Of a DNA stretch of 64,000 nt, positions 17,410-61,061 are shown one piece after another (position 1 is the first letter of the stretch; every line of letters begins with the position of its first letter). The DNA is taken from contig NZ_JAFEWC010000002.1 in the NCBI RefSeq assembly GCF_017355875.1, positions 1-64,000 of the forward strand. Reading direction: 5' to 3'. This DNA is from Aridibaculum aurantiacum (lineage in GTDB: Bacteria > Bacteroidota > Bacteroidia > Chitinophagales > Chitinophagaceae). The translations under genes and the position numbers were made by a program. The notes under the pieces are model-generated. The model saw only the letters and a list, made by a program, of their open reading frames with translations. It did no database searches and was not told where the DNA came from.

Positions 17410-18252
17410 ATGGATTTACAACACCTGGAAAATATAGCCAAACAAGTACGTAGAGACATTGTACGTATGGTGCATGGCTGCCAGTCTGGCCACCCCGGTG
17501 GTTCATTAGGATGTACTGATTTTTTTGTTGCGCTTTACTTTCATGTAATGCGCCACAACGCCAAGGAGTTCAACATGGACGGAATTGGAGAAGACCTGTT
17601 CTTTCTTTCCAACGGTCACATTTCACCAGTATGGTATAGTGTGCTTGCACGTTCCGGCTACTTTGATGTCAGCGAGCTGGCTACTTTCCGCAAGATAAAC
17701 TCTCGCCTGCAGGGCCACCCTACTACCCATGAAGGTTTACCGGGTATCCGCGTGGCTTCAGGGTCGCTTGGCCAGGGTTTGTCCGTAGCCATTGGTGCTG
17801 CGCAAGCCAAGAAGTTGAAAGGAGATAACTCACTTGTCTTCACCCTACATGGTGATGGCGAGCTGCAGGAAGGACAGATATGGGAAGCAGCCATGTATGC
17901 GCCGCACAACAAGGTTGACAACCTGATCGCCACAATTGATTACAACGGTCAGCAGATAGATGGTCCTACCGAGCAGGTACTTTCGCTGGGTAACCTACGC
18001 GCAAAGTGGGATGCATTTGGTTGGGATGTACTGGAGATGAATGGCAACGATCTGGCAGATGTGATACGTGTGCTGGAGCTTGCAAAGGCAAAAACTTTTA
18101 AAGGCAAACCGATCATGATACTTATGCAAACAAACATGGGTCACGGTGTAGATTTCATGATGGGATCGCACAAGTGGCATGGTGTAGCGCCTAACGATGA
18201 GCAGCTACAGCTGGCATTATATCAACTGGAAAGTTCTTTGCTCGATTATTAA
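17410..18252 (+). CDS. Transketolase, N-terminal (TPP-binding) subunit
   Basis: A 280-residue protein corresponding to the thiamine-diphosphate-binding half of transketolase; the motif GDGELQEGQIWEA near residue 147 and the later NGQQID mark the metal-diphosphate site. Split transketolases are known in many bacteria and archaea. The partner half follows after a 110-base gap filled with a heptamer repeat array. Together they use the xylulose 5-phosphate produced by the operon's XylA and XylB. Confidence 0.94.
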   Translation: MDLQHLENIAKQVRRDIVRMVHGCQSGHPGGSLGCTDFFVALYFHVMRHNAKEFNMDGIGEDLFFLSNGHISPVWYSVLARSGYFDVSELATFRKINSRLQGHPTTHEGLPGIRVASGSLGQGLSVAIGAAQAKKLKGDNSLVFTLHGDGELQEGQIWEAAMYAPHNKVDNLIATIDYNGQQIDGPTEQVLSLGNLRAKWDAFGWDVLEMNGNDLADVIRVLELAKAKTFKGKPIMILMQTNMGHGVDFMMGSHKWHGVAPNDEQLQLALYQLESSLLDY

Positions 18253-18361
18253 AGTGAGTGGTGAGTAGCCAGTAGTGAGTTAAAATAAATGACACTCTCT
18301 ACTACTATCAATCACTGACCAGTCACCACTAATTACTCACTCCTCACAACTGACAACTCAC
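18253..18361. repeat. Heptamer-periodic inverted array between the transketolase halves
   Basis: Directly after the TAA of the first half come four 7-base units (AGTGAGT, GGTGAGT, then AGCCAGT and AGTGAGT; 18253-18280). After a 10-base AT spacer, about 70 bases follow that, read on the minus strand, are again 7-base units near GTGAGTN. The right arm ends one base before the ATG of the second subunit. The arms can pair as a long imperfect hairpin in the intercistronic mRNA. There are no spacers, so this is not a CRISPR array. Confidence 0.85.
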
Positions 18362-18362
18362 A

Positions 18363-19322
18363 ATGAAGAAATACACTTTCACCGATAAAAAAGATACCCG
18401 CTCTGGTTTTGGAGCAGGTTTACTGGAAGCAGGAAAAAGAAACGAGAACGTAGTAGCACTATGTGCTGACCTTGTTGGTTCTCTTAAGATGGAAGCTTTC
18501 ATCAAAGAATTTCCGCATCGCTTTTTCCAGATAGGTATAGCAGAAGCAAACATGATGGGCATAGCCGCAGGTATGACCATTGGTGGCTGCATTCCGTTTA
18601 CCGGCACGTTTGCCAACTTCTCTACCGGCCGCGTTTACGATCAAATTCGCCAGAGCATTGCTTACAGCGATAAGAATGTAAAGATCTGCGCATCCCACGC
18701 TGGGCTAACACTTGGAGAAGATGGTGCTACTCACCAGATACTTGAAGACATTGGTATGATGCGCATGCTTCCCGGCATGACCGTTATCAACCCGTGCGAT
18801 TATAATCAAACAAAGGCAGCTACTATAGCCATTGCAGAACATCATGGTCCTGTATACCTGCGTTTTGGTCGTCCTGTTATTCCTGTATTTACCGATGCAG
18901 ATCAAAAGTTTGAAATTGGTAAAGCATGGATGGTGAACGAAGGAACAGATGTTACCATTATTGCTACAGGTCACCTTGTTTGGGAAGCTATACAGGCAGG
19001 CGAAAAGCTGGCAGAAATGGGCGTCAGCGCAGAGATCATCAACATACACACCATTAAGCCGCTTGACGAAGAAGCTATTCTTCGCTCTGTAGCTAAAACA
19101 GGATGTGTGGTAACTGCAGAAGAGCACAACCGCTACGGTGGATTGGGCGATGCTGTATCACAGGTACTGGTTACCAAGCATCTTGCACCTCAAGAATATG
19201 TTGCTGTGAACGACAGCTTTGGCGAAAGCGGAAAACCTGCTGACCTGATGGCTAAGTATGGTTTAGATGCAGCACACATAGTAGAGGCTGTACAAAAAGT
19301 AATGGCAAGAAGAAATAAATAA
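18363..19322 (+). CDS. Transketolase, C-terminal (pyrimidine-binding) subunit
   Basis: A 319-residue half-transketolase containing the pyrimidine-binding domain (IGIAEANMMGIAAGM with the activating Glu) and the C-terminal transketolase domain (VWEAIQAGE onward). It needs the 17410-18252 product to be active. The start codon abuts the repeat array, so its translation initiation region consists of repeat sequence. 17 bases separate it from xylulokinase. Confidence 0.94.
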   Translation: MKKYTFTDKKDTRSGFGAGLLEAGKRNENVVALCADLVGSLKMEAFIKEFPHRFFQIGIAEANMMGIAAGMTIGGCIPFTGTFANFSTGRVYDQIRQSIAYSDKNVKICASHAGLTLGEDGATHQILEDIGMMRMLPGMTVINPCDYNQTKAATIAIAEHHGPVYLRFGRPVIPVFTDADQKFEIGKAWMVNEGTDVTIIATGHLVWEAIQAGEKLAEMGVSAEIINIHTIKPLDEEAILRSVAKTGCVVTAEEHNRYGGLGDAVSQVLVTKHLAPQEYVAVNDSFGESGKPADLMAKYGLDAAHIVEAVQKVMARRNK

Positions 19323-35010: not shown

Positions 35011-36357
35011 ATGAAGCGTTGTCGCATTCTTCTTCCACTACTCTGCTTTGCAGCTACTATAGCACAAGCACAGTTTTCGCAGCAAGCCAGGGACAGCATA
35101 CGCAAACTTTCAGAGCAAGATCATGCGCACATGATGCGGCAGCTCGGGATTACCTCATTGCGGCAAGGTGCAGACGGTTGGAATCCTAATGCGCCCAATG
35201 CAGCAAATTTTGATGAAGCAAAGGCTAATCCTTATCCCAATCTGCCAGATCCGTTGCTGACAAAAAATGGCAAGCGTGTGAAGACAGCAAAGCAGTGGTG
35301 GCAGAAACGTCGCCTGGAGATAGTAGAAGATTTTAGCAGGGAGATCTATGGCCGTATGCCTGCTACACCACCGGTAAATTGGGAGGTAGTAAGCACTACC
35401 AATGAAGTAAAAGAAGGTTTTGCTGTGGTTACCAAAGAGCTGGTGGGACGGGTAGACAACGCTGCTTATCCGCAGGTATCGGTTAATATAGATCTTACGC
35501 TTACCACACCGGCCAATGCCACTGGACCAGTGCCGGTAATGATGGAGTTGGGTTTTGTATTTCCACCCGGCTTCCGCTTCCCCGGCCAGGACAGCACCAG
35601 GCGTGAACCAGCATGGCAGCAGCAGGTACTGGCGCAGGGTTGGGGTTATGCAGTCCTCGTTCCTGTTTCTATACAGGCAGATCATGGTGCAGGTTTGTCG
35701 CAAGGCATCATTGGATTGATGAACAAAGGTCAGCCACGCAAGCCCGATGACTGGGGAGCATTGCGTGCATGGGCATGGGGTGCAAGCAGGGCTATAGATT
35801 ATTTTGAAACAGATAAAGCAGTTGATGTAACACGTATAGGCATCGAAGGACATTCGCGCTATGGCAAGGCTGCACTGGTGGCCATGGCTTATGATCCGCG
35901 TATTGCTGTTGGCTTTATCAGTTCTTCAGGTGAAGGTGGTGCCAAGCTGCACCGCCGCAATGCAGGTGAGCTGGTAGAGAATGTAGCCAGCGCTGCAGAA
36001 TACCATTGGATGGCTGGCAACTTTATCAAGTATGCCGGCCCGCTTACATGGGACGACCTGCCGGTAGATGCACATCAGCTGATAGCTCTTTGTGCGCCAC
36101 GTCCTGTATTTATTAGTGTAGGCAGCGTAGGCGAAGGATGGGTAGATGCAAGAGGTATGTTTATGGCTGCTGTACATGCAGGTCCTGTTTATAAACTACT
36201 AGGCAAAAAAGACTTGGGCACCGCTGAATTTCCGCCTGTAGGGAAAGGTCTGATGGATGGCGAGATATCTTTCCGTCAGCATGAAGGTGGACATACACCA
36301 GGCCCTAATTGGCCAACATTTATAGAATATGCAAAGCGGTATTTTGGGAAGCGGTAG
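35011..36357 (+). CDS. CE15 4-O-methyl-glucuronoyl methylesterase (glucuronoyl esterase)
   Basis: A secreted alpha/beta hydrolase of 448 residues (signal to about A20) of family CE15, whose members cleave the ester between xylan glucuronic acid and lignin alcohols. The nucleophile is S282 in GIEGHSRYGKAAL, the oxyanion arginine follows it, and H428 lies in RQHEGGHTPGPNW. The segment GFISSSGEGGAKLHRRN is characteristic. It is the last gene of the xylan locus and implies that lignified (woody or straw) glucuronoxylan is the natural substrate. Its stop codon overlaps the first unit of a heptamer array. Confidence 0.92.
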   Translation: MKRCRILLPLLCFAATIAQAQFSQQARDSIRKLSEQDHAHMMRQLGITSLRQGADGWNPNAPNAANFDEAKANPYPNLPDPLLTKNGKRVKTAKQWWQKRRLEIVEDFSREIYGRMPATPPVNWEVVSTTNEVKEGFAVVTKELVGRVDNAAYPQVSVNIDLTLTTPANATGPVPVMMELGFVFPPGFRFPGQDSTRREPAWQQQVLAQGWGYAVLVPVSIQADHGAGLSQGIIGLMNKGQPRKPDDWGALRAWAWGASRAIDYFETDKAVDVTRIGIEGHSRYGKAALVAMAYDPRIAVGFISSSGEGGAKLHRRNAGELVENVASAAEYHWMAGNFIKYAGPLTWDDLPVDAHQLIALCAPRPVFISVGSVGEGWVDARGMFMAAVHAGPVYKLLGKKDLGTAEFPPVGKGLMDGEISFRQHEGGHTPGPNWPTFIEYAKRYFGKR

Positions 36358-36410
36358 GCGTTAGATGATAGGCGTGAGGCGTGAGGTTGTTAGGTGTTAA
36401 GCGTTAGATG
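36357..36410. repeat. Heptamer-periodic array, single arm
   Basis: Eight units of about 7 bases (GGCGTTA, GATGATA, then two GGCGTGA and relatives, one of 8 bases) run from the final G of the CE15 stop codon to 36410. No complementary arm follows. It lies between the convergent CE15 and nucleotidyltransferase genes. Confidence 0.8.
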
Positions 36411-41688: not shown

Positions 41689-41881
41689 GGTGAATAGTCA
41701 ATAGTCAATGGTCAATAAAAACAATGGTCAGTTGTCAAGGTGCAAAAAGTCAAAAGTCAAAAGTCAAAAGTTAGAAAGGAGAACAGCCTGCATTCACCAA
41801 CCCAGTATCCAGCATCCAGCATCCGATCACAGCCTCTCATCTTCCAGCATCCGCCATTAATCATCAATCTTAAATCGTCAA
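41689..41881. repeat. Heptamer-periodic strand-switching array between ABC genes
   Basis: From just upstream of the permease ATG the plus strand reads GGTGAAT, AGTCAAT (twice), GGTCAAT, then three AGTCAAA, passes through a degenerate centre and continues as C-rich units (ATCCAGC twice, then ATCATCA, ATCTTAA, ATCGTCA, ATCATAA) up to the ATPase stop codon. Spacing is 7 through most of the 190 bases. It replaces the normally tight ATPase-permease junction. Confidence 0.85.
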
Positions 41882-42556
41882 TCATAAATCCTCAGTCATC
41901 CTCCCTCCCCTGATCTTGATGATGCGTTGGGTTTTTGCAGCAAGGTCAAGATCGTGTGTAACCAATACAAGCGTGGTTCCTGCTTGTTTGTTCAGGTCAA
42001 AGATCAGCTCAATGATCTTCTCACTTGTTTCGGCATCAAGACTGCCTGTTGGTTCATCGGCAAAAAGTATTTGAGGTTGATTACTAAATGCTCTTGCCAG
42101 CGATACCCGCTGCTGTTCACCACCACTCAGTTGCGATGGGTAATGATGCGCTCTGTCAGCAAGCCCTACTTTATCAAGCAATTCTAGCGAAGCTTTCTTT
42201 ACCTTCTTTTCGCCGCGTAGTTCCAGCGGCACCATTACATTTTCCAGCGCAGTGAGCGTAGGTATCAATTGGAAGTTTTGGAAGATAAATCCTACATGCT
42301 GGTTACGTACCTGCGCACGTTCATCTTCACTCAGGTTATCCAGCTTTGTATTGTTAAGTTCAATCATTCCGCTGCTACTTCTGTCGAGCCCTGCACTTAA
42401 GCCAAGGAGCGTGGTCTTGCCACTTCCCGAAGGGCCAACAATGGCAAGCGTTGAGCCTGCCTCTACAGAAAAGCTAATATTGTCGAGAACCGTAAGCGTT
42501 TTCCCTGACCCGTTATATGTCTTGCTTACGTTCTGAAGGTTTAAGATGGTAGCCAA
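41882..42556 (-). CDS. ABC transporter ATP-binding protein, YbbA/LolD-like
   Basis: A 224-residue ATPase with Walker A GPSGSGKTTLL, signature LSGGEQQRVSLARA, Walker B ILFADEPTG and the H-loop VTHD. It energises the YbbP-like permease downstream. No ATG exists before the conserved N-terminus (ILNLQNVSKTY), so the start is a TTG at 42556. It is divergent from the TesA-like gene at 42672, reproducing the tesA-ybbA-ybbP neighbourhood of Escherichia coli. Confidence 0.93.
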   Translation of the reverse strand: MATILNLQNVSKTYNGSGKTLTVLDNISFSVEAGSTLAIVGPSGSGKTTLLGLSAGLDRSSSGMIELNNTKLDNLSEDERAQVRNQHVGFIFQNFQLIPTLTALENVMVPLELRGEKKVKKASLELLDKVGLADRAHHYPSQLSGGEQQRVSLARAFSNQPQILFADEPTGSLDAETSEKIIELIFDLNKQAGTTLVLVTHDLDLAAKTQRIIKIRGGRMTEDL

Positions 42557-57956: not shown

Positions 57957-60893
57957 ATGTACCTCAACTGCAAGACATATTTCTCGTTTCGCTACGGAAC
58001 CTTTGCCACGGATGAACTGGTAAACTATGGCGTAGAGATGGGGGCGGCAGCAATGGCCATTACCAACATCAACAGCACTGCCGATACATGGGATTTTTAT
58101 GATAGCTGCAAGCAGGCAGGCATCAGGCCACTGCTGGGTGTAGAGATTAGGAACGAAGATCAGTTTATGTATGTGCTGGTAGCCATGAATATGAACGGTG
58201 TACAAAAGATCAACCTGTTCCTGTCGCAACACCTGCAGTATAAAACTTCTTTTCCCGAACGAGCCAGCATTACCAACGATGTATGGGTAGTTTATGCATT
58301 GGGTACATTTTCACCAGACGAGCTAGCGGCTAATGAGCTGATAGGCGTGCAGGTATCGGAAGTAAATAAGCTGATGAATGCAGGTTGTATTGCGCATCCT
58401 ACAAAGTTTGTAGTGCGACAACCGGTGACATACAAGGATGCTACAAGCTATAATCTTCACCGGCTGCTGCGTGCTATTGATAAGAATATACTGCTATCGA
58501 AGCAGGAGGCGACGCACATTGCCGGAAACAAAGAAACCTTCATCGCACCGGCAAAGATCCTGGAGGCATTCCAGAAGTACCCACAGATCATCACCAACAC
58601 GCTACAGGTGGTGGACACCTGCAGCTATGAAATTGATTTCAACAAAGACAAGAACAAAAAGGTCTATTCCGCTACTTTAGAAGATGACCGGATCCTGCTG
58701 GAGAAACTGGCTATAGATGGAATGCGTTACCGTTTTGGGACCCGTAACAAAGAGGCGCAGCGGCGGGTAGCAAAGGAACTTGAGATTATTAACAAGCTCG
58801 GCTTTAACGCCTATTTTCTTATTACCTGGGATGTGATTCGCTATGCACAAAGTCGCGGCTTCTTTCATGTGGGAAGAGGAAGTGGCGCTAACTCTGTAGT
58901 AGCTTATTGCCTGCAGATAACAGATGTGAACCCAATAGAGCTGGATCTTTATTTCGAGCGATTTCTCAATCCGTACCGAACATCGCCGCCAGATTTTGAC
59001 ATTGACTTCAGTTGGCAGGATCGCGATGAAGTGATCGACTATATCTTCAAGCGATATGGGAAAGAACACGTAGCGCTGCTGGGAATGTTCAGCACGTTTC
59101 AATACAATGCAGTATTGCGGGAGTTGGGAAAAGTATTTGGACTGCCTAAGCATGAAGTAGATGCAATAGCCAATAATCCCAATGCTACGCTGCTGGATGA
59201 TAAGATACAGCGGCTCATCCTGAAGTATGGCAACCTGATGCGCAACTTTCCAAACTACACCAGTATACACCCGGGAGGAATGCTTATAAGCGAAGAACCC
59301 ATTTACCAGTACACGGCGCTGGAGATGCCGCCCAAAGGATTTGCCACTACGCAGATAGATATGTTTGGTGCCGAGAAAGTAGGATTGTACAAGCTGGACA
59401 TACTTAGCCAACGTGGTTTGGGACATATAAAAGATGCCATTCAGCTGGTGCGGCAAAACAAAGAGATATCAGTAGATATACATGCCGTAGAAAAAATGAA
59501 GAAGGATGCAAAGGTGGCGGAGCAGATACGGCGTGCCGATACCATTGGATGTTTTTATATAGAAAGTCCTGCTATGCGGCAACTGCTGAAGAAGTTGCGC
59601 TGCGATAGTTATATCACACTGGTTGCTGCTTCGTCTATTATTCGCCCTGGGGTATCGCAGTCGGGTATGATGCGGCAATACATCGAGCGCTTTCATCATC
59701 CCGATGGTTTTGAGTACCTGCACCCCAAGATGAAGGAGCTGCTGGAAGAGACCTACGGTGTGATGGTATACCAGGAGGATGTGATAAAGGTTGCGCATCA
59801 TTTTGCAGGATTGGATATGGGTGAAGCAGATGTACTGCGCCGCGCCATGAGCGGCAAGTACCGCGGACGCAAAGAGTTCGAGAAGATCAGGGATCAATTC
59901 TTTGACAACTGCAAACAGTTTGGCTATGCCGATGAGCTGACCAAAGAGGTATGGCGACAGATAGAAAGCTTTGGAGGCTACTCGTTTTCTAAAGCGCACT
60001 CTGCATCGTTTGCTGTAGAAAGTTACCAGAGCTTATTCCTGAAGACCTACTATCCCATGGAGTTCATGGTGGCTGTTATCAACAACTTTGGCGGCTTCTA
60101 TAGCACCGAACTATACGTGCATGAATTGCGGCGGGCAGGTGCCATTGTACATGCACCTTGTGTGAACAATAGCGATGAATTGACCAACATAGAGAGCAAC
60201 CAGGTGTACCTGGGTTTTGTACACATCAAGAGCATAGAGAAAGATGTGATACAGCAGCTACTGCAGGAGCGTAATAACAACGGGTGGTACCAAAGCCTGG
60301 AAGACCTAGTGAAAAGAACAGGGATAGGGCAGGAGCAACTGAATACACTCATACGTGTAGGTGCATTGCGTTTTACAGGTAAGAATAAAAAAGAGCTGCT
60401 GTGGCATGCAAACTTTTTTCATAAAAGGGTGCAGCATACGGCGGTGGCCAAAGCCACTACACTATTTGAAGAACCGGCAAAAGATTTTCAATTGCCGGTA
60501 TTGTATCATTCAGCTATGGAAGATGCGCTTGATGAGCTGGAGCTGCTTGGTTTTCCTCTGTGTGATCCTTTTTCACTGGTTGATGCCGATACAAATGCGT
60601 TTGTAAAGGCTTCACAATTTGAAGCTCACCTTGGAAAGCAGGTAGATGTGCTGGTATACTACATTACCGAGAAACCAGTAAGAACTAAGAAAGGTGATGT
60701 GATGTACTTCGGGACATTCATTGACAGCAATGGTGATTGGGTAGATACGGTACATTTTCCCGATGTAGCTGTAAAGCACAGGCTGACAGGCCGCGGCTAT
60801 TACCATATTCGTGGTAAAGTGGTGGAAGAATTTGGCGTGTATACACTGGAAGCAGTTTGGATGAAGAAGCTAGGATTGAAGCAAGTAGTGTAG
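57957..60893 (+). CDS. dnaE: DNA polymerase III alpha-type subunit, DnaE2/ImuC-like
   Basis: A C-family polymerase of 978 residues, shorter than replicative DnaE (about 1160 or more). The N-terminal PHP domain is degenerate: the canonical HxHxEYS and TDHGN metal ligands read as YLNCKTYFS and ITNINS. The catalytic acids are intact in PPDFDIDFSW. Further conserved segments are GRGSGANSVVAYCL, SIHPGGMLIS, YQEDVI and FSKAHSASFAVE; a C-terminal OB-fold (about 865-970) follows. Pairing with dinB indicates damage-inducible error-prone synthesis, like imuB-dnaE2 in other phyla, but no imuA or lexA is adjacent. Confidence 0.93.
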   Translation: MYLNCKTYFSFRYGTFATDELVNYGVEMGAAAMAITNINSTADTWDFYDSCKQAGIRPLLGVEIRNEDQFMYVLVAMNMNGVQKINLFLSQHLQYKTSFPERASITNDVWVVYALGTFSPDELAANELIGVQVSEVNKLMNAGCIAHPTKFVVRQPVTYKDATSYNLHRLLRAIDKNILLSKQEATHIAGNKETFIAPAKILEAFQKYPQIITNTLQVVDTCSYEIDFNKDKNKKVYSATLEDDRILLEKLAIDGMRYRFGTRNKEAQRRVAKELEIINKLGFNAYFLITWDVIRYAQSRGFFHVGRGSGANSVVAYCLQITDVNPIELDLYFERFLNPYRTSPPDFDIDFSWQDRDEVIDYIFKRYGKEHVALLGMFSTFQYNAVLRELGKVFGLPKHEVDAIANNPNATLLDDKIQRLILKYGNLMRNFPNYTSIHPGGMLISEEPIYQYTALEMPPKGFATTQIDMFGAEKVGLYKLDILSQRGLGHIKDAIQLVRQNKEISVDIHAVEKMKKDAKVAEQIRRADTIGCFYIESPAMRQLLKKLRCDSYITLVAASSIIRPGVSQSGMMRQYIERFHHPDGFEYLHPKMKELLEETYGVMVYQEDVIKVAHHFAGLDMGEADVLRRAMSGKYRGRKEFEKIRDQFFDNCKQFGYADELTKEVWRQIESFGGYSFSKAHSASFAVESYQSLFLKTYYPMEFMVAVINNFGGFYSTELYVHELRRAGAIVHAPCVNNSDELTNIESNQVYLGFVHIKSIEKDVIQQLLQERNNNGWYQSLEDLVKRTGIGQEQLNTLIRVGALRFTGKNKKELLWHANFFHKRVQHTAVAKATTLFEEPAKDFQLPVLYHSAMEDALDELELLGFPLCDPFSLVDADTNAFVKASQFEAHLGKQVDVLVYYITEKPVRTKKGDVMYFGTFIDSNGDWVDTVHFPDVAVKHRLTGRGYYHIRGKVVEEFGVYTLEAVWMKKLGLKQVV

Positions 60894-61061
60894 GTGGTAG
60901 TTGGGAGGTGGTAGTTGTTAGGCTTTAGGCGGTGGCGCTTAGCTAATAGTCCAAACATCAAACAATCAAACATCCACCCTCCAACTCACAACTTCCAACA
61001 CCTAACATCAAACCTCCAACTCCAACCTTAAACATCAAACATTAAACCTTAAACTTCCTAA
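60893..61061. repeat. Heptamer-periodic strand-switching array after dnaE
   Basis: Beginning at the G of the dnaE stop codon, G-rich units (GGTGGTA, GTTGGGA, then GGTGGTA, GTTGTTA, GGCTTTA) give way near 60945 to C-rich units (CATCAAA, CCTCCAA, CATTAAA, CCTTAAA) that continue for about 115 bases. Spacing is 7 for most units, with a few of 6 or 8. It occupies nearly all of the dnaE-gnd gap. Confidence 0.85.

Follow-up and report, generated by a model that had tools for sequence, protein, structure and literature searches.

The window, a stretch of 64,000 nucleotides, encodes transketolase as two adjacent half-genes, and the gap between them holds a 7-base repeat that changes strand partway through. 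This locus raises the question of whether the repeat is a device that sets the ratio of the two subunits, which the preliminary description offered as one possibility beside neutral expansion, or one copy of a repeat that is scattered over the genome. The region is laid out as follows.

17410 to 18252, plus strand: N-terminal half of transketolase, ThDP-binding, 280 aa (Pfam Transketolase_N, 9.6e-47).
18253 to 18285, no strand assigned: left arm, G-rich, AGTGAGT GGTGAGT AGCCAGT AGTGAGT plus TAAAA (lag-7 identity 0.615 against 0.289 shuffled, P 0.001).
18286 to 18312, no strand assigned: non-periodic spacer (lag-7 P 0.24 for 18286-18323).
18313 to 18362, no strand assigned: right arm, C-rich complement of the unit, running up to the ATG (lag-7 identity 0.698 against 0.306, 0 of 3000 shuffles); the only part of the gap that TRF scores, at 37.
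18363 to 19322, plus strand: C-terminal half of transketolase, 319 aa (Pfam Transket_pyr, 1.2e-41; Transketolase_C, 7e-32).

The N half ends in a TAA that adjoins the array directly and, because its ...DY* end is common to the window and the five orthologs compared, the array begins right behind the native stop codon. The Pfam matches and coordinates bear out the 110-base gap (18253-18362) given by the preliminary description. Across it, lag-7 identity reaches 0.544, where 2000 dinucleotide shuffles give 0.263 (z 6.2), with z of 5.3, 3.4 and 3.0 at lags 14, 21 and 4, and with identity under the shuffled means at lags 6 and 8. Both arms contain the unit nGTGAGT/ACTCACn. The earlier wording that the gap is entirely 7-base periodic holds for the two arms but not for the middle, 18286-18323. 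The palindrome of 7-base repeats in the transketolase gap is real, though imperfect. Rfam 15 gives no match above the gathering score anywhere in the 64-kb window.

Four further arrays had been reported in the window, at 895, 36357, 41689 and 60893, and all four are present.

893 to 922, no strand assigned: array of AATGTAA (TRF 46; segment score 19).
36346 to 36406, no strand assigned: single G-rich arm of GCGTTAG in a convergent gap, overlapping the end of the ORF at 35011-36357.
41690 to 41900, no strand assigned: two-armed array, an AATAGTC/AAAAGTC arm and then a CATCCAG/CATAAAT arm, the words differing between the arms.
60890 to 61054, no strand assigned: two-armed array, a GTAGGTG/TTAGGCG arm and then a CAAACAT arm.

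The genome to which the window belongs (G000; 4.86 Mb in five contigs) was surveyed over 1.6 Mb, in four 400-kb blocks with genes taken from a greedy longest-ORF script rather than a trained caller. At a score of at least 18, intergenic DNA contains 53 lag-7 segments compared with 1-6 at lags 4-6 and 8-13, and 26 and 16 at lags 14 and 21, each count taking in one masked run of N. Lag-7 segments are mainly intergenic (53 of 57, one being the masked run), and a looser threshold yields 93 of them with 61 distinct consensus words. The arrays are degenerate. Lag-7 autocorrelation is thus strongly enriched across the intergenic DNA surveyed, and the suggestion of a genome-wide element with a fixed period and a variable unit stands for G000, where the excess lies at lags 7, 14 and 21. 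Elsewhere other periods occur as well. One 400-kb block of G018 has 107 intergenic lag-7 and 28 lag-8 segments, none of the latter overlapping a lag-7 segment; octamer arrays such as AATAACTG are separate from the heptamers there (L220-L239, G018:C1 560001-960000). When 566 gaps other than the transketolase one were tested in named relatives (P<0.01), lag 7 reached significance in 28, lags 8 and 9 in 17 each, and lags 5, 6, 10 and 11 in 5-10 each.

Comparison of the same gap across relatives indicates that arrays favour this position. We collected 110 transketolase loci, the window's included, of which 68 have adjacent halves within 260 nt; in the remainder the N half is absent from the stretch examined, or the gap is larger or interrupted. 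The 68 gaps range from 1 to 187 nt (median 66.5), and 20 of them, at 29 nt or less, are too short for the lag-7 test. Of the 43 gaps of 45-260 nt, 18 are lag-7 positive at P<0.01, G000 among them, while lags 5, 6, 8, 9, 10 and 11 give 1, 1, 2, 0, 0 and 0 positives. Fifteen of the 18 positive gaps are G-first, none is C-first and three are neither, compared with 6:7 and 12 others among the 25 negative gaps. For named loci, 13 of 36 transketolase gaps are positive versus 23 of 377 other codirectional gaps (odds ratio 8.7, p 1e-6), and within Sphingobacteriaceae, with clade labels as in the record titles, 13 of 26 (45-260 nt) versus 19 of 185 (p 6e-6); these p-values are too small, given that related species are not independent. 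The 28 positive gaps elsewhere are G-first at 19:1, against a baseline of 132:90 in 538. The transketolase gap is therefore a preferred slot for arrays. By eye, about eight words occupy it (GTGAGT, GTTKAAA, AAAAAGG-like, GTTGTTA, TGAGATA, GCGTA-like, ATTAGAT and TTAGTAT), and this variation points to several origins or replacements.

Replacement can be followed between close species. In the Pedobacter compared, C halves are 85-90% and N halves 80-88% identical, and the fillings differ between the same TAA and start position: heptamer palindromes in L069, L071, L077 and L087, and a CCCCTTTAGGGG palindrome in L065 and L089. L076 and L081 (89/86%) present a like contrast of heptamer and CCCCTTTAGGGG filling. 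The CCCCTTTAGGGG palindrome lies at 9924-10000 in L065, 9877-10000 in L081 and 9810-9979 in L089, and its 16-mer occurs in these three gaps only among the loci examined, with no sign of dispersal. Among 45 named loci, 16 pairs have C halves 84-92% identical. Gap identity is clearly above the shuffled level in three (L131/L127 0.91, L088/L097 0.82, L087/L069 0.74), slightly above it in two (L091/L086 0.54 against 0.47, L077/L069 0.33 against 0.28) and at the shuffled level in 11, two of which set a longer gap against one of 2 or 9 nt. The content of the transketolase gap is thus often replaced between species at this degree of identity. A comparison of G018 with two congeners covered 14 orthologous gaps, of which five have called arrays: the gap at 617323 retains a related word and that at 626040 an AACAACT word plus an extra stretch, and word or content differs at 627188, 639535 and 641938, one site having GTTGTTA in one species and ATTAATA in two. 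G018 has further repeated intergenic palindromes, among them one with GTCATCCCGACGAAGGAGGGATC in the array gaps 641938 and 761771.

The words themselves are unevenly distributed among genomes. The pattern TBAG at period 7 matches 27 of 39 genomes, G000 included, with counts that vary widely (G018 350, G034 370, G000 93, none in 12 genomes). The reversed pattern, used as a control, is itself frequent in some genomes (G000 61, G034 427), which indicates that other period-7 words abound too. Among the matches listed, the words differ by genome: TTAGGAA/TTAGAAA in G018, TGAGACG/TGAGATG in G017, TCAGCTT in G016 and TCAGCAA/TCAGAAG in G013. Three copies of GTGAGT with at most one mismatch occur 17 times in G000 and 107 times in G002, and in 17 of 39 genomes overall. 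In 241 segments from three genomes, words of one genome lie closer to each other than to words of another (0 of 1000 permutations). Mean word distance is 2.28 within G018 against 2.64-2.83 between genomes and 2.12 within G017 against 2.64-2.82, whereas G000 words are no closer to one another (2.84) than to those of other genomes (2.82-2.83). Identical words are shared by 7.5% of pairs of unlinked gaps in G018, 13.7% in G017 and 1.7% in G000, compared with 1.0% of pairs between genomes; letter-shuffled rates are 0.85% for G018 and 0.23% for G000, so that these two genomes stand at 7-9 times their shuffled rates. The two array-rich relatives G018 and G017 have a heptamer vocabulary of their own, and G000 has one weakly. 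In G000, AAAAGTC dimers lie at 10 places in 1.6 Mb, where the commonest word reached at most 4 in 300 random draws, and of 247 genomes of the phylum only 5, G000 included, have AAAAGTC in three copies. Perfect AAAAGTC triplets in G000 number 7 forward and 0 reverse, overlapping ones included, for example at 41745-41771 of the window.

The arrays also share a position and an orientation. Most lie directly behind stop codons and are G-rich on the sense strand, and in some a C-rich arm precedes the next gene. In G000, 61 of 93 segments are nearer a stop, at a median of 5 nt from it, and the other 32 are nearer a start, at a median of 31.5 nt; stop-side segments fall within -25 to +10 nt of the stop in 67 of 83 cases in G018 and 10 of 13 in G017. 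Top-strand skew in G000 is 33:10 at left and 10:34 at right gap ends (Fisher 5e-7), the strand that reads into the gap behind the stop being G-rich, and gaps with several segments are ordered G-then-C in nine cases, C-then-G in none and undecided in seven; segments within one gap are not independent in these polarity counts. Stop sides are G-rich at 52:15 in G000 array gaps versus 196:190 in non-array gaps (p 5e-5), at 62:17 in G018 versus a background of 71:41 that is itself skewed (p 0.03), and at 11:4 in G017 versus 36:35, which is non-significant (p 0.15). At start sides in G000, non-array gaps give 355:116 and array gaps 30:5. Convergent gaps, which have no start codon, are polarised at 51:10 overall (G000 21:4, G018 19:6, G017 11:0), with backgrounds of 107:96 in G000 and 21:15 in G018. 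A by-product of G-poor leaders would fit the start sides, but fails at stop sides and convergent gaps, and was rejected. Stop codons in all frames as a selected feature were rejected as not general: closure within 30 nt behind the stop is found in 10 of 10 cases in G017, 44 of 70 in G018 and only 8 of 38 in G000, with controls at 5 of 99, 24 of 139 and 44 of 720, respectively.

On this evidence, the array is probably a dispersed repeat and not a means of fixing how much of each subunit is made. The fuller reading, to which we give a probability of about 0.52, is that it is one of many dispersed intergenic heptameric repeats found in G000 and numerous related Bacteroidota genomes, of a type known from Xanthomonas and Nostoc, and that these have spread partly in trans, with no conserved effect on the N:C ratio needed. 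Local copying errors (slippage and concerted turnover) would maintain the period inside an array, and recombination, gene conversion or insertion would also carry words from one locus to another. The gap between the transketolase halves would then be a tolerant or attractive slot, since an insert behind the stop spares both the coding sequence and a short leader before the start. Its enrichment counts against a purely neutral slot, as neutrality does not predict enrichment. Several observations weigh against this reading. Within G000 movement in trans is unsupported, because its words resemble one another no more than they resemble those of other genomes. The pair with the highest C-half identity, L131/L127 (92%), retains its array, and stop-side polarity is non-significant in G017. 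The matched arms of G018, described below, also count against this reading. Xanthomonas repeats sit at more conserved gene neighbourhoods than controls, according to the available text of PMC4692102, and this also counts against it. No enzyme, target-site duplication or transfer event was seen for the spreading of arrays. A mobile element with a common interior was rejected: masked array gaps in G018 have inter-locus matches in 21 of 83 cases, fewer than the 49 of 108 among control gaps.

The alternative that fares best, though we consider it improbable, is pure local slippage, in which each array expanded in place from a chance duplicate with help from a 7-nt property of DNA polymerase, with neither movement nor function. 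In many bacteria, heptamers outnumber every other kind of long simple repeat, and a polymerase contact length has been suggested as the reason (Mrazek 2007, as cited in the available parts of PMC4692102 and PMC4679880). Consistent with slippage, the arrays are intergenic and degenerate, and the words of G000 form no clear vocabulary of their own. However, words recur at unlinked loci above what composition predicts, strongly in G018 and G017, AAAAGTC dimers exceed random draws in G000, and slippage alone does not predict stop-side polarity.

It is distinctly unlikely that the palindrome acts in the transketolase mRNA, where a hairpin would tune the stability or translation of the C half and hence the subunit ratio. 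The long imperfect hairpin that had been proposed is moderate as RNA (-26.2 kcal/mol, z -2.37) but weak as DNA on the minus strand (z -0.95). Folding is somewhat better in transketolase gaps that are lag-7 positive than in those that are negative (mean z -2.6 versus -1.7), and the frequency of positive gaps (18 of 43, 15:0 in polarity) and their odds ratio over other codirectional gaps favour a role of this kind. Among seven alignments tried, with alifold favouring unchanged columns, one compensatory change was found (G005 versus G008) and none in the other six. Against a hairpin, the folding of array gaps in G000 does not surpass that of controls (mean z -1.39 for 45 versus -1.85 for 73, p 0.08), and arms of the same gap are no more complementary than arms of different gaps; the 13 pairs behind this (p 0.83) do not include the transketolase gap, as its left arm falls below the threshold. 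In G018, the arms of one gap are inverted copies well beyond chance (0.68 versus 0.38; 33 pairs, 0 of 5000 permutations; G-first 23:3), so that a palindrome is made or kept there; G017 shows no difference, in 2 pairs only. Palindromes form in some genomes, not as a rule. The hairpin as a general function was rejected on the folding of G000 array gaps and on G000 arms being unmatched within gaps, although G018 arms are matched.

The claim that the array sets the subunit ratio fares poorly when orthologs are considered. G018, the most similar same-family ortholog (C half 85% identical), has a non-heptameric gap of 101 nt. Seven congeners have the halves side by side; the gap is lag-7 positive in four of them and lacks an array in three, two of which have gaps of 27-29 nt. 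G001, G003 and G006 are, like G018, not lag-7 positive, and the 20 of 68 gaps at or below 29 nt, together with the folding of array gaps as a class, speak against it as well. A ratio-setting hairpin is not supported, and the findings require no conserved effect on the N:C ratio. Some role is possible given the enrichment of the slot and the better folding of lag-7-positive transketolase gaps, and an effect in cis is likewise possible given this enrichment together with a Rho-like composition.

That composition leads to an explanation we hold to be a shade less probable than the hairpin: the C-rich, G-poor arms are candidate Rho utilisation sites on transcripts that leave the gap, which may shield genes from antisense read-through or cause polarity before the C half. 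The plus strand of the gap has a 70-nt stretch with C minus G of 24, a value reached by 0.04% of genome windows. In a matched test of gap ends, at least 15 is reached by 47% of 104 array-gap ends versus 9% of 948 others, and at least 24 by 19% versus 0.6%. RUT sites are described as 70-80 nt, C-rich and G-poor in the portion of PMC6407284 available, a composition that the transketolase gap has, and Rho is encoded in G000. Transcript starts or stops are more frequent at the heptamer repeats of Xanthomonas than at control sites (PMC4692102, available text). However, YC dinucleotides are not in excess over letter-shuffled words, the spacing used by a RUT predictor is 11-13 nt and not 7 (PMC6407284, same portion), and a C-over-G bubble follows from G/C polarity by itself.

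Finally, it is very improbable, and was rejected, that the G-rich arms were written by a reverse transcriptase of the telomerase type or by adding repeats to broken ends that NHEJ then joined: the G-first, C-second arms resemble fused telomeres, Ku is present in G000 and DRT10 makes tandem-repeat cDNA (PMC12632851, in the part available), but that repeat is 9 nt (same source), array-rich G034 has no Ku match, a terminator-like hairpin at G017 393002-393174 lies, by eye, between the arms rather than outside them, and the sole RVT_1 (PF00078) match in G000 is Drt2-like. This match (L199 1114-2688, about 2.81 Mb on G000:C1) has Drt2 as its best PADLOC match at 8.5e-136, far above RT_UG17 at 1.7e-24; it is a defence-associated reverse transcriptase, and the single RVT_1 match in G000 is thus not of the UG17 type of DRT10.

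In our tree, the window's C half groups with Mucilaginibacter (97/92, the bootstrap not fully settled), and the C halves of the seven congeners lie apart from it, beside Dyadobacter. Since its C half is nearest Mucilaginibacter and away from these congeners, the operon was probably acquired horizontally, as judged from the tree. The same-genus G002 and G007 have only weaker C-half matches (best E 7e-33 and 4e-35). Of the nearest Mucilaginibacter C halves, L063 has a lag-7-positive gap with a different word and L075 a negative one; for L094 no N half was found. The word GTGAGT occurs elsewhere in G000 and its genus, and also in Pedobacter L067 and Mucilaginibacter L084. The array may have come with the operon or arisen after the transfer, and the occurrence of GTGAGT fits both.

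The closest published counterparts share features with these arrays without matching them fully. Rehm 2015 (PMC4692102) describes G-rich heptamers, GGGAATC / GGGGA(C/T)T, in Xanthomonas and Nostoc, most of which lie on the coding strand within 50 bp behind a stop or on the non-coding strand ahead of a start. Xanthomonas has convergent inverted pairs of them, repeats are fewer between divergent than convergent genes, and length and sequence vary between species; the paper also refers to the 2007 survey and to Calothrix heptamers. Like those, the arrays studied here are intergenic and G-rich on the coding strand and dock close behind stop codons. The docking rule, seen here in Bacteroidota, is already in print for Xanthomonas and Nostoc. 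Unlike the one word family of Rehm 2015, there are many words per genome, in another phylum, and we measured whole-gap replacement where PMC4692102 reports a conserved gene neighbourhood for Xanthomonas. The transketolase gap has no GGG on either strand, and so lacks the four G-runs of at least 3 of a G-quadruplex. The arrays do show a 7-nt tandem period above chance in mainly intergenic DNA, the marks of the STRR/LSSR kind of repeat. The cyanobacterial STRR heptamers were reportedly described in Mazel 1990. As in the cyanobacterial STRR or heptanucleotide long simple sequence repeats (Mrazek 2007, as cited), there are several words of tandem heptamers.

MacGregor 2015 (PMC4679880), in its available passages, reports TAACTGA direct repeats in Beggiatoaceae, Cyanobacteria and some Bacteroidetes, as well as some Bacteroidetes heptamer arrays missing from the shorter gaps of close relatives. 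Both systems have heptamer direct repeats near gene ends, but TAACTGA is one fixed word, mostly upstream of starts in the BOGUAY genome (PMC4679880), whereas here there are many words, mostly behind stops and often in inverted pairs. Tandem TAACTGA was not found in the transketolase gap. REP elements go with a RAYT transposase. REP and other short extragenic palindromes are, like these arrays, dispersed intergenic palindromes; REPs are small and most carry a GTAG or CGTC tag (PMC3733652, in part), while here the word varies and the period is kept. The variable words argue against membership. Judged by titles and abstract openings, no literature was found on genome-specific heptamer vocabularies or whole-gap replacement in Bacteroidota.

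The Bacteroidota studied here thus follow the docking rule published for Gammaproteobacteria and Cyanobacteria, each with differing words, which leads us to suggest, quite tentatively, that a general process may spread heptamer arrays in trans, imposing period and strand, giving array-rich genomes their own vocabulary and replacing the whole stop-to-start interval between species with as much as 90% identity in the flanking genes. Both an excess of heptamers and their docking at stop codons had already been reported, and the parts of PMC4692102 and PMC4679880 available name no tested cause. Docking in Bacteroidota by an array that lacks G-quadruplex runs argues that G4 formation does not place such arrays. 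Plain local slippage would not lead one to expect common vocabularies in array-rich genomes, nor would a fixed regulatory function lead one to expect replaced fillings. The transketolase gap, being short, heptameric and differently filled in close species, is a natural site at which to catch a spreading event, and it is equally suited to asking whether such inserts alter expression of the operon.
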